Assembly (NCBI RefSeq): GCF_003721515.1
Contig: NZ_RJJD01000001.1
Coordinates: 434,001 to 498,000 of the forward strand
Source: Rufibacter latericius
GTDB lineage: Bacteria > Bacteroidota > Bacteroidia > Cytophagales > Hymenobacteraceae
Direction: 5' to 3'
DNA length: 64,000 bases
Position numbers and translations under genes: made by a program. Under the pieces are notes generated by a model that was given only the letters and a program-made list of their open reading frames with translations, had not been told where the DNA came from and searched no databases. Positions 1,285-63,751 of the stretch are shown in pieces (the first letter of the stretch is position 1; each line of letters opens with the position of its first letter).

Positions 1285-1320
1285 ATTTTGGGCCAGTTTT
1301 CAGAAAAGAAGCGGTGAAAG
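1285..1320. repeat. 36-base palindromic element, degenerate copy
   Basis: Left arm ATTTTGGGCC fits the family well. The inner part has TTTTC followed by AAAAG. The right arm GCGGTGAAAG has decayed and pairs poorly. Confidence 0.5.
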
Positions 1321-1489
1321 GAGAAGCGTTGGTCTGATAGAAGGGATTGATTGAAGATGTAGAACTGGTTTGGACCTGTTTTCCAGATTACAGCTCTAAA
1401 ATGGCAACAGCTAACCACGGTTCTCGGCACAGACGCTCGCAGGTCCTCTGGATGCTATCAGGTCTTTGGAGAAAGCTGTATAGCGGTAG

Positions 1490-1526
1490 CAAACAAAAAC
1501 ACCCCTCCTAGTTTAGGAGGGGTGCT
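1490..1526 (-). terminator. Rho-independent terminator of the hybrid regulator gene
   Basis: A 9-base stem CACCCCTCC / GGAGGGGTG (1500-1508 and 1516-1524) with a 7-base loop. On the minus strand it is followed by TTTTTGTTT. Confidence 0.85.
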
Positions 1527-1763
1527 CGGAGGGCGGGGTGGTGCAAATGCAGTTGAATGAGCGTAGACATGAATGACCAGCCATGCGCCTGTCGCAGCGA
1601 GGAAAGTCAGAGACTATCCAATCATGAGAGGCATGAGTTGCAAATTCGCGCCAGCTTTAAAAAAGGGAATTGATGTTGATGCGTTTAAGAGCTGCTTTCC
1701 AAAAACAATGCCTTAAATGACCACCAGCCCTTCCTCTTCCGCCAGCTTGCTGCCTCACAAAAT

Positions 1764-4700
1764 CTACGCAGTGGGCTGCGACTGCTTGCTTTCAGCGTAG
1801 ACCGATGGCAGCATGTGGTAGGCTTCTTTGAAATACTTAGAGAAGTAGCGCGGGTTGTTGAACCCTACGGCATAAGCGACCTCGGCCACCGTGAGTTGAC
1901 TTTTCTCCAGGAGTTGCGCCGCCCGCTCCAGCCTGATCTTCCGGATGAACTCTACCGGCGATTGCCCCGTGAGCGCCACGATTTTCTTGTACAGGTACAC
2001 CCGGCTGATACCCAGTTCGCGGCTCATCAGCTCCACCGAGAACTCCGGCGAATCTATGTTTTCTTCTACCACCTTGATGGCTCTCTGGATGAGTTTATCG
2101 TCCAGGGAGACAATGTCAATGGAACTGGTCTGTACGCTGATTTTCTTTCCGTAGGCTTTCTGTAGCAACTGGCACTGCGAGATGAGGTTAGACATGCGGG
2201 AAAGCAGCAGCTCAAAGTTGAATGGCTTGGTGATATAGTCATTGGCCCCAATGCCCAAGCCTTTCAGTTTCTGCTCCTCGGCGGTTTGGGCGGTTAGCAA
2301 GATGAACGGAATATGCGAGGTTCGGGCATCAGACTTGATCTTCTTGCAGAATTCAATCCCGTTTAGTTCGGGCATCATGAGATCGCTTACAATGAGGTCA
2401 GGCAACGCCGAAAGGGCCTTTTGCCAGCCCTCTTTCCCGTTTTTAGCTTCCAACACCGTAAAATGGGCGCTCAGGTTATCTTTGAGATAAGTCCTGAAAT
2501 CTTCGCTGTCTTCTACCAGCAGCACAACCAACTCGGGCTCCAGGGTTTCTCCGGAAAGGCGCTTCACTGGTTCTGGTTCCTTTTCTGCCAAGGCAACCTC
2601 GGAAGTGGTTTCGGGCTCAGGTTCTGAAAGCACAGCCCCGGTTACCTGGATGGGCAAGGTAACGGTAAAACAACTGCCCTGCCCCGGTTCGCTCTGCAGG
2701 TTGATCATGCCCCCATGGATTTTCACGAACTCACGGGTAATAGCCAACCCGATGCCGCTGCCTTGGTTCACCAGGTTATCGGGCACGTCTTCCCTGAAGA
2801 AGCGGTCAAAAACCTTCTCCTGGTTCTCTTTGGAGATGCCAATACCCGTATCAGATACCTTTATCTCCAGCAGGTGCAGACCAGGGGAATCGGAGTCATT
2901 CTCGTGGCAATTCACTTCTACTTTGATGTCTCCGTTCTCGGGTGTGAACTTAAAGGCATTGGAAAGCAGGTTGTACAGGATCTTGCCCAGTTTGTCCATG
3001 TCAAAAGAGGCATGCAGCTCGCGCACGGTGCTCTCAAAGGACAGGTTCACGTGGTTTTTCTCAGATAGATCCGAAAAAGAGTACACCGATTCCTTGATGA
3101 ACTTGATGATGTTTCCGTGCGAAGGCGCGAACGCCACTTCCTCCACTTCCAGTTTCCGAAAATCCAGGAGCTGATTCACCAGCAACAGCAGACGTTTGGC
3201 GTTCCGGTTGATCATCTGAAACTGCTTTGACTGCTCCGTATCTTGCGTGGTAGCCAACAGCCTTTCAAGGGGTGCTAAAATCAAAGTGAGCGGAGTCCTG
3301 AACTCATGGCTGATATTGGTGAAGAACTTGATTTTCATGAGGTGCAGTTCGCGCATGTGTTTCACCTCACGGCGCTCCCGCTCCAGCTCGAATTTCTCGT
3401 TCGCTTTCTGCTTCTCTACCCGGCGCACGACCACCAGCGTCAGAAAAGCCAGCAGGAAGTAAGAGACATAGGCCACATCGGAACGCCAGAACGGCACCTG
3501 TACCTCAATATCCAGACTGACACCTTTCCTGTTCCAGACACCGTCATTGTTTGAAGCCTTGACGATCAACTGATAGTTACCTGGATCTAAGTTGGTGTAG
3601 GTGATGCGGCGGTTTGCCCCGTCTGCGGTGTGCCATTCCTTGTCAAAGCCCTCCAGTTTGTAGAGGTACTTGTTTTTTTCTGAATGAAAGAAGTTAAGCG
3701 CCGCAAATTCCACAGTGAACATGTTCTGGTCATGCTGCAGCGTGATTTGGTCCAGATCTGCCAGGACTTTGGGCAAAATAACCTTACCGCCTACCTCCTC
3801 GCCCACCTTCAGGCTCTTGCTGAACAACTGGAAATCGGTGAAGACAATGGTCGGTACCACCTTGTTGGAAGTCAGGTCGCTGGGCTGGAAGAGGTTGAAT
3901 CCGTTGGGACCGCCAAACACCACCTCGCCTTTCCTGGTAAGGTAGGCGGCGTTTTCATTGAAGACCTTGCCCTGCAGTCCGTCAGATTCATCGTAATTGC
4001 GGGTCACAAAGGAAATCTCCCGCGCCAGGCGGCCTTTTATCTCCAGTTTTGAGATTCCGTTGGGCGTACTGATCCAGAGGTCATGGCGGCGATCTTCCAG
4101 GATGTTAAGGATGATGTTATCAGCTAAGCCATTCTCCTTGGTGAAAAGCCGGAAGGAATTAGTTTCAGGGTCAAAGAGGTTGAGGCCTTCGTTGGTTCCT
4201 ACCCACATCTGTTGGCGGCTGTCCCGGAAAATGCTTAAAACCGAGTTACTGCTCAGGCTTTGTGGGTTTTGAGGGTCGTTTCTGAAATGGGTCAGTTTTC
4301 CGGAGGCCAGGTTCAGGACTTCTACCCCAATGTCACCGCCCGTCCAGAGGTTGCCTTTTGCGTCTTCGGCAATGGCCGCTACGTACAACGCGGTGATCCC
4401 CGGCTTACCGGCCGCAAGCCGGTAAGGAATGAAGGTGCCGGTGGCAGGGTCTAGCCGCTGTAATCCTCCGCGCAGGGTACCCACCCAAATCTGGTTTTGG
4501 CTGTCTTGGAACAGCTCCCACACGTTGTCGTTGCTCAGGCTCAACGGGTTTCCTTCCTGGTGGCGGTACCGGATGAATTTCTGCCCGTCAAACTTGCTGA
4601 GGCCTCCTAGATAGGTACCCACCCAAAGGTTTTGCTCTTTGTCCAGCAGCAGACTTACAATCACGTTGCTACCCAGGCTATTTGGATCTTTGGGGTTATG

Positions 4701-5924
4701 CTGATACCGGGTATACTGCCCGGTGCTTCGGTTCCAGTAAAGCAGACCGCCGCCGTTTGTTCCTATCCAAAAGTTACCTTTGGCATCTTCTACAAACCGG
4801 TTGATGTCATCGTAGGGCAAGCTTCCTTTCACCAACAATTGGTGCTGGTGGTGCTGAAACCGCAGTAAGTTCTTGTGGTAGTAGTTGACGCCTTTTTTGT
4901 AGGTCCCCAGCCAGATGATTCCGTCTCGGTCTTTGTAAAGAGAGATAAGGCTGTTGTGTGACAGGCTGTTTTTTATTTCGGGCCCGTTTTGGACAAACTG
5001 CACCGAAAGCGTCTTTTTATCCACGATGTTGATGCCGCCATGGTCAGTGGCCAGCCAGATCTTTCCGTCCTCGTTTTCCACGATGCCCCGCACCAGGTTG
5101 GAGTTCAGCCGAAGGGTGGGCGCGTTCTCATGCAACTGCCTGAATGTTTTGGTGGAGGGAGTATACAGAAAAGCCCCCAGGCTCTCGGATAAAAAATAGA
5201 ACCACAAGTCGCCGTCCCGATCGGTGGTCATGGCGTAGGTCATGGACTGCCCGTTGAACCGCTCCTGCAATCCCTTTTCCTGCGCCTCAACTTTCAAGGT
5301 TTTCGGGTTGAGTTTCTGCAGCAGTCCGTCGGTGTGGAGCACCCAGAAATCGCCTTTATTGGTGAAAGACAGGGCATGAATTCTGGCATTTCCCTTGGAC
5401 CCCGGCAGCAGAACGGGGGTAGAAACCTTGTTTTTGGGGTTGTACCTGGTAATCCCCACACCGGTTTGCAGAAACCAGTAGTTGCCTTCGCGGTCCCGCA
5501 CAATGTCTTCTATCGGGGCCTGTGGAAGACCGTATTTTTTCAGGAAGGGTGCATAGTTCCGCTCAAACCGATCGGTGCCCGGATCATAGATGGTCAACCC
5601 TTTGAGGGAGGTGATCCAGAGGTTGCCGTCCGGGTCTTCAAACAATTTGCTGATGCTGTTGTCTCTAAGCGAAGCGGTAGTGCGGGAGTTATGCCGAAAA
5701 ACTTTGATACTGTAACCATCAAACCGGTTGAGGCCCGAGGAAGTACCAATCCAAAGATAACCTTGGCGGTCTTTCAGGAAACAGTTGACCTGGTTATGCG
5801 ATAAACCATTGTTAACGTCAAGATGCAGGAACCGGTGTTGTTCAGGCAGGGAGGCAAGCACCGGAAAGGCGGACCCCAGGAGGATAAAAGCAAAGGCAAT
5901 ATGTAAAAGAAAGCGTATTGACAT
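1764..5924 (-). CDS. Hybrid two-component system protein (sensor kinase, receiver and AraC regulator in one chain)
   Basis: A 1386-residue protein. Order of parts: signal peptide (1 to about 25); a long periplasmic region of two-component propeller repeats (LWIGTSSGLNRFD, IWLATDHGGI, LWVGTYLGGLSKFD and similar) to about residue 690; a Y_Y_Y domain (about 715-800, ending NLDPGNYQLIVKASN); one membrane helix (about 818-835); HisKA with the phospho-acceptor in ISHEFRTPL near residue 873; HATPase (DTGIGI, GSGIGLAI); a receiver with the aspartate in SDLMMPELNG near residue 1181; and a C-terminal AraC helix-turn-helix (AYAVGFNNPRYFSKYFK). In Bacteroidota such proteins sense a saccharide in the periplasm and activate nearby glycan genes. 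The adjacent co-directional GH31 gene fits that role. It ends at a strong terminator. Confidence 0.95.
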   Translation of the reverse strand: MSIRFLLHIAFAFILLGSAFPVLASLPEQHRFLHLDVNNGLSHNQVNCFLKDRQGYLWIGTSSGLNRFDGYSIKVFRHNSRTTASLRDNSISKLFEDPDGNLWITSLKGLTIYDPGTDRFERNYAPFLKKYGLPQAPIEDIVRDREGNYWFLQTGVGITRYNPKNKVSTPVLLPGSKGNARIHALSFTNKGDFWVLHTDGLLQKLNPKTLKVEAQEKGLQERFNGQSMTYAMTTDRDGDLWFYFLSESLGAFLYTPSTKTFRQLHENAPTLRLNSNLVRGIVENEDGKIWLATDHGGINIVDKKTLSVQFVQNGPEIKNSLSHNSLISLYKDRDGIIWLGTYKKGVNYYHKNLLRFQHHQHQLLVKGSLPYDDINRFVEDAKGNFWIGTNGGGLLYWNRSTGQYTRYQHNPKDPNSLGSNVIVSLLLDKEQNLWVGTYLGGLSKFDGQKFIRYRHQEGNPLSLSNDNVWELFQDSQNQIWVGTLRGGLQRLDPATGTFIPYRLAAGKPGITALYVAAIAEDAKGNLWTGGDIGVEVLNLASGKLTHFRNDPQNPQSLSSNSVLSIFRDSRQQMWVGTNEGLNLFDPETNSFRLFTKENGLADNIILNILEDRRHDLWISTPNGISKLEIKGRLAREISFVTRNYDESDGLQGKVFNENAAYLTRKGEVVFGGPNGFNLFQPSDLTSNKVVPTIVFTDFQLFSKSLKVGEEVGGKVILPKVLADLDQITLQHDQNMFTVEFAALNFFHSEKNKYLYKLEGFDKEWHTADGANRRITYTNLDPGNYQLIVKASNNDGVWNRKGVSLDIEVQVPFWRSDVAYVSYFLLAFLTLVVVRRVEKQKANEKFELERERREVKHMRELHLMKIKFFTNISHEFRTPLTLILAPLERLLATTQDTEQSKQFQMINRNAKRLLLLVNQLLDFRKLEVEEVAFAPSHGNIIKFIKESVYSFSDLSEKNHVNLSFESTVRELHASFDMDKLGKILYNLLSNAFKFTPENGDIKVEVNCHENDSDSPGLHLLEIKVSDTGIGISKENQEKVFDRFFREDVPDNLVNQGSGIGLAITREFVKIHGGMINLQSEPGQGSCFTVTLPIQVTGAVLSEPEPETTSEVALAEKEPEPVKRLSGETLEPELVVLLVEDSEDFRTYLKDNLSAHFTVLEAKNGKEGWQKALSALPDLIVSDLMMPELNGIEFCKKIKSDARTSHIPFILLTAQTAEEQKLKGLGIGANDYITKPFNFELLLSRMSNLISQCQLLQKAYGKKISVQTSSIDIVSLDDKLIQRAIKVVEENIDSPEFSVELMSRELGISRVYLYKKIVALTGQSPVEFIRKIRLERAAQLLEKSQLTVAEVAYAVGFNNPRYFSKYFKEAYHMLPSVYAESKQSQPTA

Positions 5925-6312
5925 ATCTATAACTTCACCTCCAAGAATTTTCCGGGCATCTCCTAAACCGCTCTTCTCTGATTTAACCCAGAAACCAAAG
6001 CCTGCTTTAATGCCCAGATGGGCTTCCCTCCTGCGCAGTGCTTTTTACCAGAGGCGTTTAGCTTGCTGATCCTGCGGCCTTTGCTGCGCAGGCGCTTACC
6101 TCTACTTTCTAAGCCAATGCAAGATAGGCTTTTTCACAAAAAAATGCCAGATTCTCTTCCAAAGCCTCAATCAATCCAAACATCCTCTGGCTGGCATTGT
6201 TAAAAATGCAACACAGGGCAGGAACGGAATCTCGCGCTAGTTTAAGTAAGAGAACCGCCTGTCTTGTGTTTTCGGGCCTTCAGTCTTAAAAGCACTTAAT
6301 TTCTTAAGGGAT

Positions 6313-6348
6313 GTTTTGGGCATACTTTAAGGAAAATTGGCTTAGAAC
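6313..6348. repeat. 36-base palindromic element
   Basis: Arms GTTTTGGGCA / GGCTTAGAAC with inner CTTTA and GAAAA. Exactly 36 bases, partly paired. Confidence 0.65.
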
Positions 6349-6464
6349 GGACTACGCCAAAAAGGGGTGGTCGCCAGGAAGCCATTGTTCTACTGTTCAG
6401 GAATATATAGGATCCATCATAGAGCAATGCCCGAAGAGGTGTCATCGTTTAAAAATTGTTTCCT

Positions 6465-6472
6465 TAACTTTG
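6465..6472 (+). promoter_or_regulatory. -7 box (TAACTTTG) of the lpx operon
   Basis: Matches the Bacteroidota TAnnTTTG -7 consensus. It ends only four bases before the lpxD ATG, so transcription would start at or just inside the start codon. No clear -33 TTG is seen at standard spacing. Confidence 0.55.
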
Positions 6473-6476
6473 CTCT

Positions 6477-7499
6477 ATGGAATTCACGGTACAACAGATT
6501 GCTGATCTGCTCCAGGGCCAGGTGCAGGGAGACGGTAACGCCAAGGTAAACAGACTGGCGAAAATTGAGGAAGGTGCTCCCGGCGCCCTTTCCTTCCTGT
6601 CTAACGCCAAGTATGAGCACTATCTTTATACCACCGGTGCCACTGCCGTGATTGTCTCCAAAAACTTGGAAATCAAGCAACTGGTTACCGCTAACCTGAT
6701 TCTGGTAGAAGACCCGTATTCTTCTTTCTCCACTTTATTGGAAGTGTACCAGCAAGCCGTGGCCGCTTCCCGCCAAGGTGTGGAAGAACCCTGTTTCATC
6801 GGGGAGAACTCCACCATCGGGGACCGCCATTATAGGGGTGCTTTCTCCTATATCGGCAAAAACTGCAAAATCGGAGACGGCGTACATATTTATCCGCAAG
6901 TATATATCGGGGACAACGTGACCATTGGTGACAATACCGTTCTGTTTGCCGGTGCCAAAATCTATGCCGACTGTGTGATTGGCGCATCCTGCACCATACA
7001 TGCCGGAGCCGTGATCGGGAGCGATGGGTTCGGGTTTGCCCCGCAGAAAGATGGCACCTACAAAGCCATTCCGCAGACGGGCAATGTGGTGTTGGAAGAC
7101 CATGTGCGCATTGGCGCTAATACTACAGTTGACTGCGCCACTATGGGCTCTACCATCATCAGAACCGGAACTAAGATCGATAACCTGGTGCAAGTAGCCC
7201 ATAACGTGGAAATCGGCCGTCATACCGTGGTAGCTGCGCAGACCGCATTTGCAGGTTCTTCCAAGGTGGGCAACTATTGCACTATTGCCGGACAGGTAGG
7301 GGTGGTGGGCCACGTGAGCATCGCAGACAGAACCATTGTAGGTGCCAAATCTGGCATCTCCAAAAACATCAAAGAAGAAGGTACTTTTGTGCAGGGAGCC
7401 CCTGCATTTGACTATAAACAGAACCTTAGGGCTATGGCCGTTTTCCGGAAACTACCCGAGTTGCAGAAACAGGTAGAGGAACTCAGAGAAAAGCTTTAA
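6477..7499 (+). CDS. lpxD: UDP-3-O-(3-hydroxyacyl)glucosamine N-acyltransferase
   Basis: Third step of lipid A synthesis: transfers a 3-hydroxyacyl group from acyl carrier protein to the glucosamine nitrogen. The 340-residue chain begins MEFTVQQIADLLQGQVQGD, the usual LpxD N-terminus. A long left-handed beta helix of hexapeptide repeats follows (IGDNVTIGDNTVLFAGA, IGASCTIHAGAVIGSDGFG). The conserved VQVAHNVEIG near residue 240 carries the catalytic histidine. A short helical C-terminus (FRKLPELQKQVEELREKL) closes it. Length is normal. It is the first gene of lpxD / lpxC-fabZ / lpxA, with a 31-base gap to the next gene. The start is fixed by homology and by the -7 box just ahead. Confidence 0.97.
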   Translation: MEFTVQQIADLLQGQVQGDGNAKVNRLAKIEEGAPGALSFLSNAKYEHYLYTTGATAVIVSKNLEIKQLVTANLILVEDPYSSFSTLLEVYQQAVAASRQGVEEPCFIGENSTIGDRHYRGAFSYIGKNCKIGDGVHIYPQVYIGDNVTIGDNTVLFAGAKIYADCVIGASCTIHAGAVIGSDGFGFAPQKDGTYKAIPQTGNVVLEDHVRIGANTTVDCATMGSTIIRTGTKIDNLVQVAHNVEIGRHTVVAAQTAFAGSSKVGNYCTIAGQVGVVGHVSIADRTIVGAKSGISKNIKEEGTFVQGAPAFDYKQNLRAMAVFRKLPELQKQVEELREKL

Positions 7500-7530
7500 C
7501 TTTAGCCCCTCTTTACCTATTTAGTGCTTC

Positions 7531-10335: not shown

Positions 10336-10348
10336 GAGTTTAAGTTGC

Positions 10349-10384
10349 GCTTTCTGCTGGTTTTAAAGAAATCTGCCTTAAAAC
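10349..10384. repeat. 36-base palindromic element
   Basis: Right half is canonical (GAAAT, then GCCTTAAAAC). The left arm GCTTTCTGCT is diverged. Lies just after the lipid A operon. Confidence 0.6.
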
Positions 10385-14328: not shown

Positions 14329-14471
14329 CCTAACAACAGTTAGGTTTAAGGGACCTGTTGCGGCTTTCCGGTGATTATTCGCTGTTTTTCTGTAACATTG
14401 CACAAAACGTCCCGCTTACCTGACTGCGGTATTCTGATCTCAATAACCCAAAAAACTGACATACTCTTACT

Positions 14472-15928: not shown

Positions 15929-15964
15929 GCTTAAGGCCCGAAATACTAAAATCAGCCTTAAAAC
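15929..15964. repeat. 36-base palindromic element
   Basis: Arms GCTTAAGGCC / GCCTTAAAAC; the core TTAAGGC pairs fully with GCCTTAA. The inner part is diverged (AAATA, AAAAT). Follows the E2 terminator by 9 bases. Confidence 0.75.
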
Positions 15965-29126: not shown

Positions 29127-31817
29127 TTACGGTTGCATGTTATTCAATAACTGTTCCAAACTGTATTCATCCGGAATTAAAACTTCGCGAGCCTTGCTTC
29201 CCTCAAACGGACCTACCACGCCGGCTGCTTCCAATTGGTCAATCAGACGACCAGCGCGGTTGTAACCCAGTTTCAGACGACGCTGCAACAAAGAGGTACT
29301 TCCCTGTTGGTGCGTCACCACAATACGGGCGGCCTCCTCAAACATCGCATCCTTGTTGCTCGGGTCGAACTCAGCTTTCTCGTTTCCGCTTTCATCTCCC
29401 AGGAATTCCGGCAACAGATACGCATCTGAATAGCCCTGCTGCTCGCCGATGAAATCACAGATGCGGTCCACCTCCGGCGTATCCACGAACGCGCACTGTA
29501 CCCTGATCAGGTCTGAGCCCAAAGAGAACAGCATATCCCCCTGGCCAATCAACTGGTCGGCGCCGCCGGTGTCCAGAATGGTACGGGAGTCAATCTTAGA
29601 CGTTACCTTGAAAGAAATACGCGCCGGAAAGTTCGCCTTGATGATACCCGTAATGACGTTCACCGATGGACGCTGTGTGGCCACCACTAAGTGAATCCCA
29701 ATAGCCCGCGCCAGCTGCGCCAGACGCGCGATAGGCGTTTCCACCTCTTTCCCGGCGGTCATCATCAAGTCAGCCAACTCATCAATCACCAGCACGATGT
29801 ACGGCATGAACTTGTGGCCTTTCTTGGGGTTCAGGCGGCGCTCTACAAACTTGAGGTTGTATTCCTTCAGATTCCGGCAGCCGGCGTCTTTCAAGAGATC
29901 ATAGCGCTGGTCCATCTCCATACAGAGCGAATTCAGCGTGTTCACTACTTTCTTGGTATCGGTTATAATGGCCTCATCGGTATCGGGCAGTTTGGCCAGG
30001 AAATGGCGCTCAATCTTGTTGAACAGCGACAATTCTACCTTTTTAGGATCTACCAGTACAAACTTCAATTGCGAAGGATGGCGCTTGTACAGCAGGGAAG
30101 TAAGAATTGCATTCAGGCCCACCGATTTACCCTGACCCGTGGCACCCGCCATGAGTAAGTGGGGCATTTTGGCCAGATCGGTGATAAAGACCTCATTGGT
30201 GATGGTTTTCCCGAAGGCGATAGGCAACTCCATCTCGCTCTTCATGAACTTCTCGGTGCTCAGGATAGACTTGATGGGCACCATCTCCTTTTTCTTGTTC
30301 GGCACCTCAATCCCGATGGTTCCTTTACCTGGAATCGGGGCAATAATCCGGATACCTAAGGCAGCCAAACTCAACGCAATATCGTCTTCCAGGCTCTTGA
30401 TCTTGGAGATTCGCACGCCGGCTTCGGGTACGATCTCATACAGCGTTACAGTTGGCCCGATGGTGGCTTTGATGCTTGCGATGCCGATGTTGTAGTTCCC
30501 CAGTGTTTCTACAATGCGGTCTTTATTGGCTTCCAGTTCTTCCTTGGTTACCTGCACTTTCGCTACGCCATAATCAGTGAGCAGTTCAATGGACGGGTAT
30601 TGGTAGCGCGGGAGATCCAAAGTAGGGTCGTAGTTTTCGCTGACCTCCAGGTTGTCTACTTCTTCCTCTACGGCCAGATTAGCAATATCCAGCTCTACTT
30701 CCTCCTCGGGCTCTTCCAGCAAAACATCATCGTCCTGCTCTACTTCCAAAGATAGGGGAACAGATGCCAGAGGAACCGCGGCGCGCGGCGTTACCGGCAA
30801 TTCGTTCACGGTGAACAAATCTTCCTGCGGTTCTTCTACCTCTTCTTCGTCGTCAAAGTCTTCCTCTTCCTGGTCGTCGTAGAACTCATCGTCCAGCGGT
30901 TGGTCTTCGTCGTACTCCTCTTCCTCTGATTCGTCCTGCTTTACCAGAAAAGGGGCCGGAAACGCGGGTTCCTCTTTCTCAGGTTCAAAAGTGCCGCTAG
31001 GGTTCGTAAGATGGTTCATACCCGCCGATGGCGAAGCATAGACGCCAGTTTCTGGTCTTTCCACAGCCGCTGCCATGGCAGGCGCAGGAGTCGGAGCAGT
31101 CTCGGTTTTAGGGAATCTTGGACGGCCCAGGGTGGTGATATTGAAGAAGAACATCACGAAGGCAATCAGGGCAAAGCCCATCAGAAGGCCGGTTCCCCAG
31201 CCCAGAAGGCTCTGCAGCCACAAAGCGGTCTCGTAGCCGATGCCACCGCTCATGAAGCCATAGGTATCAGTAGCCTGGTTTAAAAGGACCAGATAACCTG
31301 CGGTCACGCAGCCCCACAAAAGCCCGAAGAGGCAAAGGGTGACTACCGAGGAAAGGGTGATGGAAGTGCGGCGGAAAACGATTTTATACCCGATGTAGAA
31401 CACCACCGGCACAAAGAAAAACGAGGCAATACCGAACCAGCGGTTGATGAAGTAATCAGAGATCCAGGCTCCGAAGAGGCCCAGCCAGTTTTCAGACTCC
31501 AGCCCGGCGGCTTTCACATCCTCGGGCGTCACGGACTCCACAATGCTCTGATCGGCGGTGCCGGTGAACAGGAACGAGACAAACGCGATGGTCAGGTACA
31601 GCGAAGACAACAGGAAGAAAAACCCGATGAACAGCTGAAGCCGTCGGTCTTTCAGGAAATTAAAGGAAAGCTGAGGTTTGGGCAGCGACCTCTTGGGCTT
31701 AGCCTCTTTTGGTGCGCGCGTCTCTGTCTTTCCCTTCGGTTCATTCTGCGGAATCCGAGGCGCATTTTTAGGCCGCGGACTTGTCCCTACTTCCCGTTTA
31801 TATGTGTTCGTTGCCAT
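29127..31817 (-). CDS. ftsK: DNA translocase FtsK/SpoIIIE
   Basis: Hexameric septal DNA pump for chromosome segregation. The 896 residues from ATG 31817 (MATNTYKREVGTS) show four membrane helices (about 60-230), a long acidic linker (about 280-410, rich in E and D), then the motor. The motor has an alpha domain, Walker A GATGQGKSVGLN, Walker B FVLVDPKK and YIVLVIDELADLM, and the C-terminal gamma winged helix (LLQRRLKLGYNRAGRLIDQLEAAGVVGPFEG) that reads polar DNA motifs. GGAG lies five bases before this ATG, and a TAGATTTG -7 box at 31833-31840 implies a very short leader. Confidence 0.97.
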   Translation of the reverse strand: MATNTYKREVGTSPRPKNAPRIPQNEPKGKTETRAPKEAKPKRSLPKPQLSFNFLKDRRLQLFIGFFFLLSSLYLTIAFVSFLFTGTADQSIVESVTPEDVKAAGLESENWLGLFGAWISDYFINRWFGIASFFFVPVVFYIGYKIVFRRTSITLSSVVTLCLFGLLWGCVTAGYLVLLNQATDTYGFMSGGIGYETALWLQSLLGWGTGLLMGFALIAFVMFFFNITTLGRPRFPKTETAPTPAPAMAAAVERPETGVYASPSAGMNHLTNPSGTFEPEKEEPAFPAPFLVKQDESEEEEYDEDQPLDDEFYDDQEEEDFDDEEEVEEPQEDLFTVNELPVTPRAAVPLASVPLSLEVEQDDDVLLEEPEEEVELDIANLAVEEEVDNLEVSENYDPTLDLPRYQYPSIELLTDYGVAKVQVTKEELEANKDRIVETLGNYNIGIASIKATIGPTVTLYEIVPEAGVRISKIKSLEDDIALSLAALGIRIIAPIPGKGTIGIEVPNKKKEMVPIKSILSTEKFMKSEMELPIAFGKTITNEVFITDLAKMPHLLMAGATGQGKSVGLNAILTSLLYKRHPSQLKFVLVDPKKVELSLFNKIERHFLAKLPDTDEAIITDTKKVVNTLNSLCMEMDQRYDLLKDAGCRNLKEYNLKFVERRLNPKKGHKFMPYIVLVIDELADLMMTAGKEVETPIARLAQLARAIGIHLVVATQRPSVNVITGIIKANFPARISFKVTSKIDSRTILDTGGADQLIGQGDMLFSLGSDLIRVQCAFVDTPEVDRICDFIGEQQGYSDAYLLPEFLGDESGNEKAEFDPSNKDAMFEEAARIVVTHQQGSTSLLQRRLKLGYNRAGRLIDQLEAAGVVGPFEGSKAREVLIPDEYSLEQLLNNMQP

Positions 31818-52727: not shown

Positions 52728-52731
52728 AAGT

Positions 52732-53162: not shown

Positions 53163-53198
53163 GTTTAGGGCCTGATTTCCGGAAAACAGGGCAAAAGC
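53163..53198. repeat. 36-base palindromic element
   Basis: Arms GTTTAGGGCC / GGGCAAAAGC; inner part TTTCC GGAAA within CCTG / CAGG. Confidence 0.75.
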
Positions 53199-56954: not shown

Positions 56955-56979
56955 AACAGTAGCAAGTACCACAATGATT

Positions 56980-57026
56980 AAAAGCCCAGTTGAGGATCGC
57001 TTCCTCAACCGGGCTTTTCTGTTTTT
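56980..57026 (+). terminator. Terminator of dnaE
   Basis: AAAAGCCC-A-GTTGAGG pairs with CCTCAAC-C-GGGCTTTT (one mismatch) around a 7-base loop. The T-run continues into the GTTTTT of a 36-base element. Confidence 0.9.
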
Positions 57027-57056
57027 GGAGTGTTTTCACAAAACCAATCCAAAAAC
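57021..57056. repeat. 36-base palindromic element, compensated arms
   Basis: GTTTTTGGA pairs fully with TCCAAAAAC; inner GTTTT CAC AAAAC. Fused to the dnaE terminator. Confidence 0.85.
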
Positions 57057-57127
57057 TAGAACCTGATTCATCTAGGCTATAGGCTTTCTCCTATATTCAC
57101 CAGGAGAAAACCTATCGAAACACCGCC

Positions 57128-57865: not shown

Positions 57866-57973
57866 AGTCAGGAAACGCTCCTTCTCTCCCGCTTGAGACC
57901 CCGCCATTCTGTCATTTCAGCTTCTTTCTTCCTCAGGCCCAACCTTTTCCGTATGAATCAGTAGATATACTAC

Positions 57974-58009
57974 GTTTCTGCCTCGCTTTCCGGGAAACAG
58001 CCTCGAAAC
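57974..58009. repeat. 36-base palindromic element
   Basis: Arms GTTTCTGCCT / GCCTCGAAAC, with GTTTC / GAAAC paired and inner CTTTC CG GGAAA. Upstream of trxA. Confidence 0.7.
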
Positions 58010-58078
58010 GGTATCCTTTAGGATAGTGACAAACCTGACACAAATGCGTTAGTTTTACTGTTCAAAGGGAGTTGGTTC

Positions 58079-58086
58079 TATTTTTG
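58079..58086 (+). promoter_or_regulatory. -7 box (TATTTTTG) of trxA
   Basis: Exact TAnnTTTG match 46 bases before the trxA start. Confidence 0.5.
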
Positions 58087-58131
58087 AACGGCATCTTTCA
58101 TCATTTTTGATACTTATATAAACCGAAAATT

Positions 58132-58458
58132 ATGGCACATAAAGCAATCGAGCTCACCGATGCGAACTTCGAGGAGATCATCAATTCAGATAAACCTGTA
58201 CTGGTAGACTTTTGGGCAGAGTGGTGCGGACCTTGCCGCATGGTAGGTCCGGTAGTAGAAGAACTGGCCGGCGACTATGAAGGCCGCGTGGTAGTGGGTA
58301 AAGTAGACGTAGACGCTAATCCGCAAACTTCTGCCAAATTTGGTATCCGCAGCATCCCTACTCTGCTTGTTTTCAAAAACGGACAAGTAGTAGACAAACA
58401 AGTAGGCGCAGTTCCTAAGAACGTATTGGCCCAGAAATTAGACGGTCAGTTAGCATAA
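58132..58458 (+). CDS. trxA: Thioredoxin
   Basis: Cytoplasmic dithiol reductant, 108 residues. The active site is [18 protein letters not shown] near residues 26-42 (Cys-Gly-Pro-Cys). [23 protein letters not shown] contains the conserved cis-proline and C-terminal strands. A classic Trx1-type protein with no extension. It has its own -7 box and ends in a bidirectional terminator. Confidence 0.97.
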
Positions 58459-58475
58459 TATACCTGTCAGTTTAC

Positions 58476-58517
58476 AAGCAGAAAAGCCTCCCCTTCACCG
58501 GAGAGGCTTTTCTGCTT
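58476..58517. terminator. Bidirectional terminator between trxA and the exported unknown
   Basis: Perfect 15-base stem AAGCAGAAAAGCCTC / GAGGCTTTTCTGCTT (58476-58490, 58503-58517). The right arm overlaps the start of a 36-base element. Confidence 0.9.
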
Positions 58518-58549
58518 CAGGCCTTTTTTGGAGAAAATGGCCCAAAAAG
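58514..58549. repeat. 36-base palindromic element
   Basis: Arms GCTTCAGGCC / GCCCAAAAAG, inner TTTTT and GAAAA. It overlaps the end of the trxA terminator. Confidence 0.7.
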
Positions 58550-58566
58550 GAACTCGATCTTAGAGG

Positions 58567-60495
58567 CTAGTCGCAGCCGCAGAGGTTCTTCTCGGCGGTG
58601 CAGATATCGGCGTAGCCTTGGTCAAGACGACGCAGGAATCCGCTAAGGCGTTGGTTGTGTTCTTTTACCTCCTCCAGCTTCAGCTCTTTGGGGGGAGATT
58701 TGTAGAGTGCTTCCAGCTCCCCTATGTGCTTTCTGAGTTCCAGTTTCTTTTCGTAGAGCCGTTGCACGTACTCCGGCAGGGACTCGGCGGGGTATTGCGT
58801 TTTGAAGGCGTTTTCCATACAATCATCCTTTTTCAGGTAGCCCAGGATCTTACGCTCCACTTGCAGATTCAGGTCAAGAAGCCGGGCCTTTTCCTTTTCC
58901 AGCAGCTGCTCGTCCAGGCGTTGGTTGAAAAGGCGGGCGGCTTGTTTCACTTCCTCGCGGCAGGTACGGCACTTGGTAGCGTTGGCTTTCTCCAGCAAGT
59001 TGTTCCTGAAAGTGATGTTCTCCTCGGTAGGGGCCATATCGCGCAGGCGGGAGACTTCTTTGGCGTACACCTCATTGTACAAGGTAGACTCCAGCCGGTT
59101 CAGGTGCTTTGACAACCCTTCGCCCTCCAGGGTGCTTGCAAGGAACTCGGGGTTGGGCAGCTCTACTGAATACAGTTTGTTCAGGTACTGCTCGCGTTGG
59201 GCGATGGAGTAAGTTTTAGCCTGCTCCTGATCCAGATCCAGCAGGGTATTCACCATTTCTTTACCGTTTTTCAGGTTGTAGTCAGATTCCATGTAGCTAT
59301 CGGCGTTGGAAAGGATGGAGTTGTACTCGCCTTTGAAAATACGTTGGTACGTGTGGTTGCGGGAAAACTCCCGGTCACGCTGATAGGCCAGGGTTTTTAG
59401 GCGTTTGTAGTCCTGCACCACCGTGAACAACGTTTTGGCGTTGGCCTCAGGGCTATTGTTTTTGTAGTTAAGCCGATAGTTGTTCAGGTTCTGCTTCAGG
59501 TCGCTGAAATTGCGCAGGAACTCCACGAACAGCTTTTCCTGCTTGTAGGCATCGTCAGTCACCAAGCCGGCCGTGTAGGCCTGCTCAATGCGCACGCGGC
59601 GTTTTTCAATGGTCTCCGAGGTGATGTCGCTACCTGTCAAAGCATCCATCTTGTAGAGCGATTTGTAGTTGGCTACTACCAGCACCGGGTAGTCTTTGAA
59701 GTTGAGGGCCGCCTCCAGTTTCTGGCGTTCAAACCCTTGCGGGCTGTTGCTCAGCAGCTCAGTAAGCCGAACCGTGCGTAATGCGGGCAGTTTCGCAAAA
59801 GAAGGCACAAACACGTACACCCGCACCGAGTGCAGGCGCGTGTCAAAGTTCTGACCTTCGTAGAGCCTGATGGTAGAGCTGAATTTATATTCCTTGCGCT
59901 GAGCGCTGTTCCTGATCAGGTTCCCGAACTCCCCCACCAATGACAACATGGCGGCCTGAGGCGTCATCAATTTGGAAATATTGGTGAGCTGGTTGGCGAT
60001 GAGGCTGAAGAAGAGTTCGCGGCTATCTGAGGTGAACAGTTTAGCTTCTACCGTGGCGTCTATGTTGCGCTCATCAGCGGCTAGCGGCAGTTTGTCAATG
60101 ATCCGGATGGCCTCAATGTTGTCCGAGATACGCGATGAGTAATTCTTTTTGTCATTGGCCGGCTCCAACGCGAAATTGTACAACGGATAGACCACCGGCT
60201 CCTGCCCAAACAGCTTGGCGTTCTTGAGCTGCGCCGAAATAAACAAAGACTCCAGGTTGATGTAATCGCGGCGGCGGGCCTTAGTGGTTCCCTGCTCTAG
60301 TTCATTGATTACTTTGGTGAACTGGCCTGGGTTGAACAAATACATGTCGGTGGTGAGGTACTGCCACTCGTCTGTGAACTCAAACTTGTCCAGGTAATTG
60401 TAGCCCAATCGGGTTTGGATCATGTCCTGTGCCTGGCCGGTAAAGGCACACAGCAGCAGGAAAAGCAGGAAGGAGCGGGTAATGCTTAGCTTCAT
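58567..60495 (-). CDS. Large exported protein of unknown function
   Basis: Not recognised. The 642 residues start with a signal peptide (MKLSITRSFLLFLLLCAFTGQAQ). There are no further membrane helices. Much of it is helical and charged, with coiled-coil-like stretches (LLEKEKARLLDLNLQVERKI, and KLELRKHIGELEALYKSPPK). Cysteines are confined to the last third: KCRTCREE, KKDDCMEN, and the end DICTAEKNLCGCD, so disulfides or a metal site at the C-terminus are likely. The N-terminal MIQTRLGYNYLDKFEF and a middle beta-rich part (SVRVYVFVPSFAKLPALR) suggest several domains. It has its own terminator. Confidence 0.8.
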   Translation of the reverse strand: MKLSITRSFLLFLLLCAFTGQAQDMIQTRLGYNYLDKFEFTDEWQYLTTDMYLFNPGQFTKVINELEQGTTKARRRDYINLESLFISAQLKNAKLFGQEPVVYPLYNFALEPANDKKNYSSRISDNIEAIRIIDKLPLAADERNIDATVEAKLFTSDSRELFFSLIANQLTNISKLMTPQAAMLSLVGEFGNLIRNSAQRKEYKFSSTIRLYEGQNFDTRLHSVRVYVFVPSFAKLPALRTVRLTELLSNSPQGFERQKLEAALNFKDYPVLVVANYKSLYKMDALTGSDITSETIEKRRVRIEQAYTAGLVTDDAYKQEKLFVEFLRNFSDLKQNLNNYRLNYKNNSPEANAKTLFTVVQDYKRLKTLAYQRDREFSRNHTYQRIFKGEYNSILSNADSYMESDYNLKNGKEMVNTLLDLDQEQAKTYSIAQREQYLNKLYSVELPNPEFLASTLEGEGLSKHLNRLESTLYNEVYAKEVSRLRDMAPTEENITFRNNLLEKANATKCRTCREEVKQAARLFNQRLDEQLLEKEKARLLDLNLQVERKILGYLKKDDCMENAFKTQYPAESLPEYVQRLYEKKLELRKHIGELEALYKSPPKELKLEEVKEHNQRLSGFLRRLDQGYADICTAEKNLCGCD

Positions 60496-60659
60496 GTAGG
60501 CACTTGGTTTAGTATCTGTTCCCGGAATAACGCAACTCTGCGCTAACACGTGTGTGGTGACACAAAGTTCGTTCCTAAAATGCCCATTCCCAAAGGAATA
60601 CCCATTGCTTTGTGTAAACTTTCTCCCGACCTTCCGGCTTTTTCAAGACCTTCTGGCCT

Positions 60660-62291
60660 GTGCATTCTTTTATTTCGGTAATTCCCCGGGTTTTCTCATC
60701 GGCCCGCTTCTGGTTTCTGGCTGTCTGCGCCTTTACCCTGTTGTATTTTTTTCTGGAGCACGAAGGCTTCTATTTCGGGGACGATTATTCCTATAGCCTT
60801 TACGCCCACCAACTCCTGCACGGCGGTTTTCACTTTGACGATTACTCCTTTTGCCACCGGTTCATGGTGTTTGTGCCCACCGCCCTGTTTTACTGGCTCT
60901 GGGGAATGAACGTGTACACCACCACTCTGTGGCCGCTTCTGTGCACCCTGGGCACCTTGCTCTTGCTGTATCTTACCTTACGGAAAGACCACCCTATTGC
61001 TACTTCCTGGGCTTTGGTGCTGCTCGGCCTCTATTATTTTCAGCTGAATACCGTCAATTACCTCTACCCAGACAACATCCTGCTGTTTTTTACCACGGCC
61101 TGCCTTTTGGTGCTTTACAAAGCCAGAAAACCTCTGCCTTCGGTAAAAAAGGAAGTTCTCTGGGGAATGGCTTTTGCCACCCTGAATCTGCTGGCTTTTC
61201 TCACCAAGGAGACCATTGTCTATACCGTTCCATTCTACCTGGCCCTTTTCCTGTATCACCTCCTCCGGCGCAAGAACTTGCGGTTCTGGGCGGCAGCGGC
61301 CCTCACCGGCATCTTGCTTTTAGGTGGGTACTTTCTTTTGTACAAAATCTTTTCGGGCGATGCGTTTCAGCGGTTCTATGACATCAAAGCCACTAACACC
61401 GCCGAGACAAAGCAGGCCTATTTAGACACCAGATCAGCTACCCTTTTCCCCCGCCTCACTTATGGCCCCATCCTATTTTTCATTGGCTCAGGGCTGGCAA
61501 TTCCGCTGGTGTTTACCCTCCTTTTATTTTTTGCCTCAACAAAACGGCACCTCTCCTCTTTAGGCGCTCCGCTGGGTTTCTGGCTGTTTGCCCTATTGGG
61601 GATGTTGTTGCCCATTTGGTTCGGGACCGCCACGGTAGATTTTTACAAACCCATGCCTTTGGTACCGCGCATGTTTCACCCCCTTTTGCCTGCCTTTTGC
61701 CTGGTTGCGGGCTTGACCATAGAACAAATCTGGAACAATCGCAACCACTACCTCCTCCTCGCTCTCCTTTTCGGTAGTTGCGCTTTGCTCACCGATAAGA
61801 ACATGATGGTCATGTACGCTCCTTTAGCAGCCTTTTTCGCGGGGTTGTTCCTCTGGAAAAAGCCATGGCCCCAGTGGTTAGGTTTGCTGGCAGTAGCAGT
61901 GGTCCTTTGCATTAGGCCGGTCTATTTCATGCTGAAGCCTACGGTATCTTATTATTTTGAACAGAAAAGCGTGGTAGACCAGCACCTGAAACACCCTACC
62001 GGAAGGTATGTGGTCCTCATGGATTCGGTGATGTTAAGCCGTTATGAATACTTCTATGGCTTTGACGTTCCAGAAAACTATTCCTTTTTGAAATACGCTT
62101 CCTACCCCAACCCTACGGCGCAAGCGGCAGACACCACCTTCCTGTTGATCAACAACGGCGTGCTGGAACATCCTGAACTAATGGTGAAGCAGCGGGAAAA
62201 GGATATTCTGCCGCTCTTCCCTTCGGCTCAACTCCTTCGGCAAAAAGGCAAGGTGAAACTCTTCTACCTTCCCACAGACACCCTTCAGTAA
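60660..62291 (+). CDS. Polytopic membrane protein, GT-C glycosyltransferase-like
   Basis: A 543-residue protein with about eleven helices, starting at GTG 60660 (MHSFISVIPRVFSSARFW). After helix 1 an acidic motif EGFYFGDDYSYSLYAHQLL fits the first external loop of GT-C (PMT/ArnT-type) transferases, where a DD or ED pair binds the metal or lipid-sugar donor. A second aspartate-rich element is HFDDYSFCHRF. The C-terminal part after residue 420 is a soluble domain. Such enzymes move a sugar from a polyprenyl phosphate to lipids or proteins. Acceptor and sugar are unknown. It ends with a terminator. Confidence 0.75.
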   Translation: MHSFISVIPRVFSSARFWFLAVCAFTLLYFFLEHEGFYFGDDYSYSLYAHQLLHGGFHFDDYSFCHRFMVFVPTALFYWLWGMNVYTTTLWPLLCTLGTLLLLYLTLRKDHPIATSWALVLLGLYYFQLNTVNYLYPDNILLFFTTACLLVLYKARKPLPSVKKEVLWGMAFATLNLLAFLTKETIVYTVPFYLALFLYHLLRRKNLRFWAAAALTGILLLGGYFLLYKIFSGDAFQRFYDIKATNTAETKQAYLDTRSATLFPRLTYGPILFFIGSGLAIPLVFTLLLFFASTKRHLSSLGAPLGFWLFALLGMLLPIWFGTATVDFYKPMPLVPRMFHPLLPAFCLVAGLTIEQIWNNRNHYLLLALLFGSCALLTDKNMMVMYAPLAAFFAGLFLWKKPWPQWLGLLAVAVVLCIRPVYFMLKPTVSYYFEQKSVVDQHLKHPTGRYVVLMDSVMLSRYEYFYGFDVPENYSFLKYASYPNPTAQAADTTFLLINNGVLEHPELMVKQREKDILPLFPSAQLLRQKGKVKLFYLPTDTLQ

Positions 62292-62299
62292 AAGAATAA

Positions 62300-62330
62300 A
62301 GGCCGGATACGTTTCCGGCCTCTTTTATTA
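62300..62330 (+). terminator. Terminator of the GT-C-like gene
   Basis: Stem AGGCCGGA / TCCGGCCT with loop TACGTT, then CTTTTATT. Confidence 0.87.
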
Positions 62331-62393
62331 AAAATAGGTTAAAAACAGGTACTACCTGCACCTATGGTTTACAGACCTAGTCACACACTCCCA

Positions 62394-62425
62394 ATTAGCA
62401 CATCAGTACATTAGAGAATTAGCAC
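62394..62425. repeat. Short array: four 8-base units
   Basis: ATTAGCAC, ATCAGTAC, ATTAGAGA, ATTAGCAC in register, next to the stop codon of the lipoprotein gene. Same unit, inverted, as the array at 23658-23689. Confidence 0.6.
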
Positions 62426-62426
62426 C

Positions 62427-62993
62427 TTACTGCCCCTGCTCTTTCTTGATGCGCTGGTAATCCCTGAGATCTGCTTTGTTCTCAAGGGTTACATACTCGG
62501 CCTGCAAGGCTCTGATTTTAGTGGCGTGACGGAGGATGATGTCATCGTGCAGGGCTCTTTCGCGGTCGTTCAGGCGTTTGTAGATGTTGTTGGCGTAATC
62601 CCAATCTTCGGTGGTCCAGACTTCTTTGCGGTCACGTACCTGTTGCAGGAAATACACATAAGCATCGCGCAGGCTATCGGCGGGAACCTGGGAGAGGATT
62701 CTGTACTGACCCAGCAGTTCGCGTTCCATTTGGGCTTGCTTTCCGGCTACAGGGCCACGGGCTTCGCGGGCCTTCCGTTCGGCGCGTTGGCGGGCAAGGG
62801 CCTTACCGGCTTCTTTCAATTCGTCCTTGGTTTTCACGGCAGCCGCATTGGCCTTTTCATCTAATTTCTCCAGCTCACGGGAAGCTATTTCCTTGCGCTC
62901 ACGAGGGGTGGTCTCACAGGAAGTAACCAGGAGGGCGCCCAGCAACGCGGGCAACACCCAGCGGTATAAGTAAAACTGATTTGCTTTTTTCAT
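62427..62993 (-). CDS. Lipoprotein of unknown function, helical
   Basis: A 188-residue protein. The N-terminus (RWVLPALLGALLVTSCETT) has a lipobox LVTSC with the cysteine near 26. The rest is highly charged and helical (ERKEIASRELEKLDEKANAAAVKTKDELKEAG), then WTTEDWDYANNIYKRLNDRERALHDDIILRHATKIRALQAEY, which I give in part only as WTTEDWDYANNIYKRLND. A role in envelope structure or as a periplasmic spacer is possible. No family recognised. It ends directly at an octad array. Confidence 0.75.
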   Translation of the reverse strand: MKKANQFYLYRWVLPALLGALLVTSCETTPRERKEIASRELEKLDEKANAAAVKTKDELKEAGKALARQRAERKAREARGPVAGKQAQMERELLGQYRILSQVPADSLRDAYVYFLQQVRDRKEVWTTEDWDYANNIYKRLNDRERALHDDIILRHATKIRALQAEYVTLENKADLRDYQRIKKEQGQ

Positions 62994-63032
62994 AGTAGAA
63001 CAGGAAAGTAAACACCCCGCATACGCAAGCTA

Positions 63033-63056
63033 CCCAAATTTGGGTGCCTAGGCACC
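63033..63056 (+). promoter_or_regulatory. Two overlapping palindromes ahead of the DUF4385 gene
   Basis: CCCAAATTTGGG (63033-63044) and GGTGCCTAGGCACC (63043-63056) share two bases. They precede a near -7 box (CACCTTTG, 63053-63060) and lie 16 bases before the start codon. Confidence 0.45.
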
Positions 63057-63071
63057 TTTGTACCCACTTCT

Positions 63072-63602
63072 ATGGCAAAAAACGGCTTTAACTATTCCCT
63101 GGATTTCAAGACCACCGATTTCCGGCAACATCCTGAACTGTACCGTGTGGGCGTAGGTGAACAGGGTGTTTTGCTGGTAGAGCCGTTTAAAAGTGAGATA
63201 CTGCCGCACTGGCGGTTCAAGAATGTGGAAGTGGCTAGTGCATCGGCGGAGAAGATTTACGGGTTATTTGAAGCGTATTTGGCACAAGAGGAGTTTGTGG
63301 GTGCCGACATGGCCCGGAAGTTCCTGCAGATGGGCTTCACCCGCGCCCGCCGCTACGCCAATCACAAGGGTGGCCGCAAATACACACCCTCACCGGAAGA
63401 TAATAACGAAGGACTCCCCTACCCTTATTCCTCAGGTAGTGCGCACAAGGGAAATGCTGTCCTTCCGCAGGAGGCTGATGCCCTCACGAATGAAAAAGCA
63501 CAGGCGGCAGCTATCTTCAAGGAATATTGGTTTAAGGCCAAAGAACACCCCGAGTACCTGCGCCAGAAACAGGCTTTCAGAGAGAAGTATTACGAGAAGT
63601 AA
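63072..63602 (+). CDS. DUF4385 family protein
   Basis: A 176-residue cytoplasmic protein of a conserved family of unknown function. Signature segments: NYSLDFKTTDFRQHPELYRVG, GEQGVLLVEPFKSEILPHWRF, FVGADMARKFLQMGFTRARRYANHKGG. The C-terminus, KEYWFKAKEHPEYLRQKQ, is basic and could contact nucleic acid (inference only). The start is followed at once by the family N-terminus. Two overlapping palindromes cover its promoter, suggesting regulated expression. A terminator follows. Confidence 0.88.
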   Translation: MAKNGFNYSLDFKTTDFRQHPELYRVGVGEQGVLLVEPFKSEILPHWRFKNVEVASASAEKIYGLFEAYLAQEEFVGADMARKFLQMGFTRARRYANHKGGRKYTPSPEDNNEGLPYPYSSGSAHKGNAVLPQEADALTNEKAQAAAIFKEYWFKAKEHPEYLRQKQAFREKYYEK

Positions 63603-63603
63603 C

Positions 63604-63639
63604 GTTTCGGGCGTGTTTCTGTGAAAGGAATCCCAAAAC
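63604..63639. repeat. 36-base palindromic element
   Basis: Arms GTTTCGGGCG / ATCCCAAAAC, with GGG / CCC paired; inner TTTCT GT GAAAG. One base after the DUF4385 stop. Confidence 0.7.
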
Positions 63640-63677
63640 GCAAGCAGCTTATTCCTGACGGATGGGATATTTATGAT

Positions 63678-63711
63678 GGCCCGACCCATAAAGCAATCGG
63701 GCTTCTGTTTT
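63678..63711 (+). terminator. Terminator of the DUF4385 gene
   Basis: Stem GCCCGA / TCGGGC (63679-63684, 63697-63702), then TTCTGTTTT. The T-run is the start of the next palindromic element. Confidence 0.75.
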
Positions 63712-63751
63712 GAGGCAGTTTTGCGAGAAACCTGCTCAAAACAGAAGCCCG
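63698..63751. repeat. Long inverted repeat built around a palindromic element
   Basis: A 17-base perfect stem (63698-63714 with 63735-63751; CGGGCTTCT outside GTTTTGAG). Its left arm also takes part in the terminator hairpin just before, so the two folds exclude each other. Confidence 0.8.
63707..63742. repeat. 36-base palindromic element, compensated arms
   Basis: GTTTTGAG pairs fully with CTCAAAAC; arms GTTTTGAGGC / TGCTCAAAAC, inner TTTTG and AGAAA. Confidence 0.85.

Follow-up and report, generated by a model that had tools for sequence, protein, structure and literature searches.

What is the function of the 36-base, two-fold symmetric elements that recur between the genes of Rufibacter latericius? 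The question was raised by a stretch of 64,000 nt from this species (genome G000), referred to here as the window, in which the original prediction had described about 31 such intergenic copies. The elements are quite probably DNA-binding sites, putative ones of two-fold symmetry and fixed geometry, as judged from the sequences of many copies in several species. A symmetric profile was trained on 460 kb of G000 (the window and 20 further stretches), and four other species of the genus, G240, G196, G302 and G228, were profiled from samples of 200 kb each. The scores listed for the window are bits in the G000 profile. A loose pattern, with up to three mismatches allowed, was counted in genomes. 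The gene caller was simple (coding fraction 73%), so the classes of gap between genes are approximate.

The family was clearly distinguishable from chance. In the window, 20 positions agreed with the earlier consensus at 22 or more of its 30 fixed letters, 12 at 23 or more and 8 at 24 or more, and the average over 20 first-order Markov samples was 0.0 at each level. The profile scan of the 460 kb of G000 gave 377 sites of at least 10 bits and 250 sites of at least 20 bits, compared with 20 and 0, respectively, in one second-order shuffle. The match rate was not reproduced by shuffled intergenic DNA in any of the five species: the intergenic sites of at least 18 bits and the mean of five shuffles were 219 and 1.2 for G000, 72 and 0.0 for G240, 71 and 0.4 for G196, 70 and 0.0 for G302, and 73 and 0.0 for G228. 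The Rfam scan of the window returned 0 matches at the gathering score, and no Rfam family accounted for the element. All 13 copies that had been singled out as good follow the plan with some mismatches and score 29–37 bits. The predicted number of copies was slightly low, as 38 intergenic sites in the window reach 16 bits or more, alongside two weak sites in genes. The accompanying claim that no copy lies inside a coding sequence was too strong. The site at 4975 is within a gene, and 314 kb of G000 coding DNA contained 33 sites of at least 18 bits, compared with 0.1 with shuffled codons; only 3 such sites were found in G302 and only 1 in G240. The density in G000 was approximately 1.87 sites per kb in noncoding DNA versus 0.12 per kb in coding DNA. 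The sites of the window are given below, followed by dnaE; no strand is assigned to the elements.

1285..1320, element, intergenic, 25.0 bits
1367..1402, element, intergenic, 27.9 bits
1683..1718, element, intergenic, 26.5 bits
4975..5010, weaker site within gene 1764-5924, 22.2 bits
6313..6348, element, intergenic, 24.8 bits
10349..10384, element, convergent gap, 27.7 bits
10431..10466, element, convergent gap, 22.6 bits
11907..11942, element, intergenic, 28.1 bits
12144..12179, element, weak, 19.8 bits (orthologous gap in G292: 11.4)
14373..14408, element, weak, 18.7 bits (orthologous gap in G295 and G292: 11.5)
15929..15964, element, intergenic, 26.4 bits
16595..16630, element, convergent gap, one base after a stop codon, 29.4 bits
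19484..19519, element, weak, 17.2 bits
21062..21097, element, intergenic, 36.0 bits
23711..23746, element, intergenic, 29.5 bits
24582..24617, element, intergenic, 34.3 bits
27338..27373, element, intergenic, 31.0 bits
28258..28293, element, intergenic, 25.7 bits
28322..28357, element, intergenic, 33.6 bits
30928..30963, weaker site within gene 29127-31610, 18.9 bits
33079..33114, element, divergent gap, 36.8 bits
34453..34488, element, intergenic, 30.7 bits
35820..35855, element, convergent gap, 20.4 bits
36958..36993, element, divergent gap, 32.4 bits
39688..39723, element, convergent gap, weak, 18.2 bits
42100..42135, element, intergenic, 26.8 bits
43473..43508, element, intergenic, 35.9 bits
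43585..43620, element, intergenic, 28.5 bits
46851..46886, element, convergent gap, 33.5 bits
47454..47489, element, convergent gap, 30.3 bits
48912..48947, element, divergent gap, 34.0 bits
50217..50252, element, intergenic, 32.8 bits
52692..52727, element, convergent gap g4-g5, 31.9 bits, orthologous gaps occupied in 8/8 genomes compared
53163..53198, element, divergent gap g5-g6 upstream of dnaE, 35.7 bits, orthologous gaps occupied in 15/15 genomes compared
57021..57056, element directly after the T-tract of the dnaE terminator-like hairpin, 32.9 bits
57974..58009, element, intergenic, 28.3 bits
58514..58549, element, intergenic, 30.3 bits
62311..62346, element, convergent gap g8-g9, 33.8 bits, occupied in 7/7 genomes compared
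63604..63639, element, convergent gap g10-g11, 27.1 bits
63707..63742, element, arms extended outward, convergent gap g10-g11, 29.1 bits
53319..56954, plus strand, dnaE (DNA polymerase III alpha; Pfam PF07733, PF17657, PF02811), anchor for the comparison between species

The consensus of the element was (Y)GTTTTnRGSCTGTTTTC-NN-GAAAACAGSCYnAAAAC(R), in which each half carries two GTTTT boxes in the same orientation and 11 bases apart. The predicted fixed length of 36 bases was borne out in G228 (79/79 sites) and G302 (75/75) and was looser elsewhere: 74/79 sites in G240, 91/124 in G196 and 230/285 in G000 had this length, and the G000 sites also included 38 of 35 bases and 13 of 37. The predicted plan of 10-base arms carried less of the signal. 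At 9/10 pairs, there were 10 places of length 36 and 3–8 for the remaining lengths between 28 and 45, which is a slight peak; at 7, 8 or 10 pairs, length 36 was not prominent. Paired arms alone hardly distinguish this length, and the fixed part of the plan is the set of A/T boxes and GSC blocks at set spacing. It is these sequence boxes that carry the signal, not perfect inverted repeats. The central dinucleotide was a pyrimidine–purine step (CA, TG, TA or CG) in 64/71 copies of G302 and 55/75 of G240 and was scarcer in G228 (24/76), G196 (32/92) and G000 (73/234).

Selection on the sequence of the boxes was evident from orthologous copies. In seven ortholog comparisons, which share genomes, columns 3, 4, 14 and 15 stayed 0.86–1.00 identical, and the identity of column 16 was 0.87–0.90 in five comparisons and 0.79 and 0.70 in the other two. 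Columns 6, 7, 12, 17 and 18 were mostly near the level of the flanks, less so in G240/G297. Among single changes, 415 broke a pair and 409 made one, and the ratio of broken to made ranged from 48/19 (G000/G291) to 50/82 (G240/G297). For G000, G240, G196 and G228, columns that were neither neighbours nor partners varied almost independently of each other (mean z −0.02 to 0.33), and the copies sampled in these four species all differed in sequence. The largely independent columns, the fixed geometry, the conserved position and the selection on sequence together back the binding site that the original prediction had offered as one of three readings.

The preferred sequence differed between species. 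The dialect consensus was GTTTTcGGGCTCATTTC for G302, GTTTTTGGCCTGTTTTC for G240 and GTTTTgGGCCTGTTTTC for G228, and the dialects differed also at orthologous loci. Held-out copies scored best in the profile of their own species in 10/11 cases for G302, 7/7 for G240, 7/10 for G228 and 1/9 for the loose G196. The dnaE sequences of G302, G240, G228 and G297 were 89–91% identical. The information content of the sites (R_sequence) was 22.8 bits in G196, 28.5 in G000, 41.3 in G228, 42.3 in G240 and 48.5 in G302. Hardly any site of G302, G240 or G228 scored between 10 and 22 bits, so the high information is not a threshold effect in these species; the scores of G000 and G196 were continuous, and their figure is somewhat inflated by the choice of hits.

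The places of the elements were inherited vertically. Over four pairs of genomes, 147/159 mapped orthologous places were occupied (G000/G295 31/34, G000/G292 28/32, G295/G292 38/39 and G240/G297 50/54); 4, 6, 6 and 27 elements of these pairs, respectively, could not be mapped. The 12 unoccupied places comprised 3 with a decayed element, 8 with other sequence or a shifted alignment, some of it element-like, and 1 in G240/G297 that was flagged as empty by the script and retains a shortened element-like stretch. No clean empty site was found among the 12. Places do come and go over longer times: the element downstream of dnaE is absent in G196, G240 and G294, where a terminator-like hairpin is present instead.

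The loose pattern was found at 947–1007 places in G000 and at 267–1947 places per genome in all 16 genomes of the genus, in which the reversed pattern had 0 matches. The other 188 of 204 genomes of the family had 0–3 matches, and only 13 of them had any. Among 291 genomes sampled across the order, more than one match occurred only in the four members of the genus that were drawn (G000 included). The profile density at 18 bits was 0.38–0.57 sites per kb in the five species, and extrapolation at 16 bits suggests a total of approximately 1,600–3,350 per genome. By dnaE, the closest named relative among the matches listed was Adhaeribacter aerolatus (82% identical); its genome had the same single hit of the loose pattern as a genome of the family, and this places the window in the Adhaeribacter family. 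Another genus of the same family, g3 (L264, L265, L268-L275), carries isolated copies with 0–3 mismatches to the loose pattern, up to 3 per genome; in two of its genomes the copies are paired, at distances of 70 and 74 bases. Some of them adjoin transposase-, HNH- or SMI1-like frames, which were judged by eye without a family search. The loci were unrelated, and these copies were rejected on that ground as an ancestral operator of the putative binding protein. They are probably passengers of transferred DNA and could therefore perhaps help to identify the donor genus.

A 42-base consensus gave no match in the plasmid and phage collections, and one contig of IMG/VR had an exact degenerate match. 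This sole contig, L276 (IMGVR_UViG_2839759663_000002), carries one element between phage-like frames. A prophage-like segment of 16.9 kb in G000, one gene of which matches PHROG 53 (head maturation protease), has one strong element (46.0 bits) between two small genes:

L050:7882-7917 (G000:C16:377882-377917), prophage-segment element

A low-GC island (approximately 33%) with genes of polysaccharide/sialic-acid type, L056:1-15600 (G000:C23:200001-215600), is nearly free of elements though A/T-rich; its genes lie close together on a single strand, leaving few gaps.

The occupancy of gaps depended on the direction of the flanking genes. Among gaps of 90–400 bases in the five species, 54/59 convergent, 130/196 tandem and 31/57 divergent gaps were occupied (convergent versus divergent, p=6e-6). 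The divergent gap ahead of dnaE was occupied in 15/15 genomes (G301 was left out of the comparison), and the element was 121–135 bases from the dnaE start in six genomes, even where the gap was approximately 765 bases long.

The position relative to terminators and promoters was resolved in part, as both were located by simple motif rules and detected in a minority of gaps. In 146 tandem gaps, the terminator was before the element in 29, behind it in 7 and inside it in 1. A terminator was present in 39/154 tandem gaps with an element versus 12/83 without one. Copies abut the T-tracts of terminators, at least 20/41 being within −7 to +1 bases, and an ordinary terminator-like hairpin adjoins several copies. 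The exact motif TAnnTTTG, which we take to be the −7 box of Bacteroidota, was found between the element and the next gene in 46 of 184 single-element gaps of the tandem or divergent class, compared with 5 on the opposite strand of the same stretch and 6 beyond the element, away from that gene; the stretches on the two sides of the element are unequal in length.

According to these results, a mechanism can be proposed. One abundant protein restricted to the genus would bind the element. The four T/A boxes on 36 bases may be contacted either by two dimers or by one dimer whose subunits each touch the DNA twice, because each half has two boxes in the same orientation at a distance of about one helical turn. 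The putative protein would occupy the spacer downstream of one gene's terminator and upstream of the next gene's promoter. There it could form a boundary that blocks read-through arriving from either side and acts as a barrier to supercoiling, and it could perhaps also anchor the nucleoid. The whole reading, in which the elements would be sites for one genus-specific protein separating transcription units, is given even chances. A more far-reaching version, a boundary code of one genus-specific protein and approximately 1,600–3,350 dyad sites in which dialect and sites would change together from species to species, as a bacterial counterpart of insulators, is put forward tentatively and may well be wrong. 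If a protein does read the marks, a bacterium has evolved genome-wide boundary sites of high information, and the 16 sequenced species of the genus with their different dialects would allow the co-evolution of protein and site to be measured over thousands of loci.

Several observations weigh against a protein that marks boundaries. Two divergent gaps are conserved as empty, with 0/13 genomes occupied for g7-g8 and 0/7 for g9-g10. The exact TAnnTTTG was not found ahead of the next gene in 138/184 gaps, the terminator finder detected none in 109/146 tandem gaps, and in 54 convergent gaps the terminators were 12 before the element, 12 behind it and none detected in 30. The copies of G302 show an orientation, and their columns are linked (mean z approximately 0.6, with 12% of pairs at z >3). 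Covariation between partners is seen at columns 5/32 and 6/31 in several species; 67 of 111 paired positions that had changed on both sides were still paired, 24 of them in G240/G297; and the arms are extended by at least 6 pairs beyond the 36 bases in 19/98 convergent, 17/221 tandem and 2/51 divergent copies. Moreover, the R_sequence of 23–48 bits is far above the R_frequency of approximately 11 bits that is sufficient for locating the sites, which calls for strong selection on each site or for some additional driving process. The search for the protein also tells against it. A screen for small basic proteins yielded no candidate in the sampled DNA (approximately 8% of G000, with a crude gene caller and no whole proteome), and the samples contained no dense cluster that could point to the gene of the putative binding protein. 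HU gave one strong match in each of 60 genomes of the family and was rejected as the reader, being nearly identical in 10 genomes of the genus and 10 others. HU-HIG was rejected likewise, as a true HU-HIG was found only in G302 of the 14 genus genomes searched.

The excess of information bears on another explanation, in which the element would be a self mark of a system of DNA uptake or exchange, like an uptake signal, and biased uptake with recombination (molecular drive) would maintain the copies and shift the dialects. We consider this unlikely. Thousands of copies, dialects, excess information, nearly independent columns and fixed loci all fit a drive without copying. The spacing fits as well: empty gaps were closer to other copies than occupied gaps (medians 939 versus 1136 bases, p=0.003), and 48 intragenic copies were at a greater distance from intergenic copies than coding positions drawn at random (medians 1264 versus 771, p=0.006). 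Passages of PMC3630211 describe dialects of the neisserial DNA uptake sequence (DUS), one of them counted 2787 and 3603 times in two genomes, its pairs at terminators and one dyad arrangement; they also describe intragenic DUS as common, whereas the present element is rare in genes. Furthermore, the ATPase of type IV pili and type II secretion (PF00437) was sought as a component of such a system and was not found over the cut-off in 11/11 genus genomes searched, the other 5 lying outside the search. If a drive did maintain the marks, the genus would have a marking system akin to uptake signals but lacking the type IV pilus ATPase.

An RNA hairpin at transcript ends, acting as a bidirectional terminator or a 3′-end stabiliser, is improbable as the general explanation. 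It would account for the preference for convergent gaps, the abutment on T-tracts, the covariation at columns 5 and 6, the retained double changes, and the extended arms, which occur in 36/319 convergent and tandem copies taken together versus 2/51 divergent ones. An intrinsic terminator is a hairpin followed by a U-tract; the element ends in AAAAC, and it is kept in the divergent gap of dnaE in 15/15 genomes, although some copies lie inside or beside terminators. Several copies already have an ordinary terminator-like hairpin next to them. In G000, covariation between partners was confined to columns 5, 6 and, weakly, 7; columns 9–13 had none, and 11 and 18 went in the opposite direction. No significant positive covariation was found for columns 9, 10, 12 and 13 in any of the five species. 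The element is thus not mainly an RNA fold, because short A/T boxes are selected, pairs are lost as often as gained, and copies are kept in divergent gaps. Pairing matters to some degree, mostly for the minority at transcript ends that doubles as a terminator-like hairpin, and the RNA fold of the original prediction applies to such a minority at most.

A mobile unit that spreads by copying, of the type of repetitive extragenic palindromic (REP) sequences or miniature inverted-repeat transposable elements (MITEs), was also offered by the original prediction and is very improbable. The elements are palindromic, intergenic, genus-specific and high-copy; G302 has some linked types of half-site, with 66 distinct sequences in 71 copies; and the dnaE-downstream gaps without an element, together with the place flagged as empty in G240/G297, would also be in keeping with it. 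The mobile unit is unlikely because the orthologous places are occupied, the columns show little linkage in 4/5 species, and a copy-rich genome lacks the Y1 transposase. Y1_Tnp was matched in 13/14 genus genomes searched and in other genera without elements. Its absence from G240, which has 1279 copies of the loose pattern, speaks against the Y1 transposase as the driver, and the suggested link to it was not confirmed. The tetranucleotide GTAG was found beside the palindrome at only 19/1094 ends, and GGAG at 13. Y1_Tnp-like genes (frames of approximately 180–300 aa) were observed within approximately 2 kb downstream of dnaE in G291, G293, G296, G297 and G302.

A target of gyrase or another topoisomerase at gene ends, as with bacterial interspersed mosaic elements (BIMEs), fits the preference for convergent gene ends, where positive supercoils collect, and is very unlikely, since the motif is restricted to a single genus, with a dialect that varies between species, whereas gyrase, which itself lay outside this analysis, is to our knowledge universal.

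The preferred reading as protein-binding sites was finally compared with known systems. Literature searches joining Rufibacter or Hymenobacter with palindromic and intergenic, with bioRxiv outside them and few subscription papers covered, returned nothing, and broader searches returned nothing relevant among the matches listed. The main text of a REP survey (PMC12306157) contains no instance of Rufibacter, Hymenobacter or Cytophag-. The element falls outside the definitions of a REP, a MITE, an uptake sequence, a terminator, a CRISPR (clustered regularly interspaced short palindromic repeats) repeat and an HU site. Like REP/BIME sequences, which passages of PMC8266576 describe as small, mostly intergenic palindromes in hundreds to thousands of copies, the elements are intergenic, high-copy and palindromic; in contrast to REP/BIME sequences with their TnpA-REP, they have no GTAG, no dependence on Y1 and, in 4/5 species, no subfamilies of copies, and their orthologous places are occupied. 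The DUS of Neisseriaceae and the uptake signal sequences (USS) of Pasteurellaceae share with them a copy number in the thousands, dialects that differ by species, the inverted pairing at terminators and one dyad-symmetric arrangement, according to passages of PMC3630211. The element differs from DUS and USS in being 36 bases long, two-fold symmetric and mostly intergenic, in a genus whose searched genomes gave no pilus ATPase over the cut-off. Type II CRISPR repeats are also 36 bases long with GTTTT and AAAAC ends, whereas the elements are dispersed single copies; no run of at least 4 copies spaced less than 450 bases was present in the sampled loci of five genomes, and Cas1, found in only 2/16 genus genomes, does not explain them. 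The sites of nucleoid or roadblock proteins of the HU/IHF and GapR type are similar in their A/T boxes one helical turn apart and their genome-wide spread, and the footprint of IHF is approximately 36 bases. Compared with these sites, the element has much higher information, a fixed dyad geometry and species dialects.

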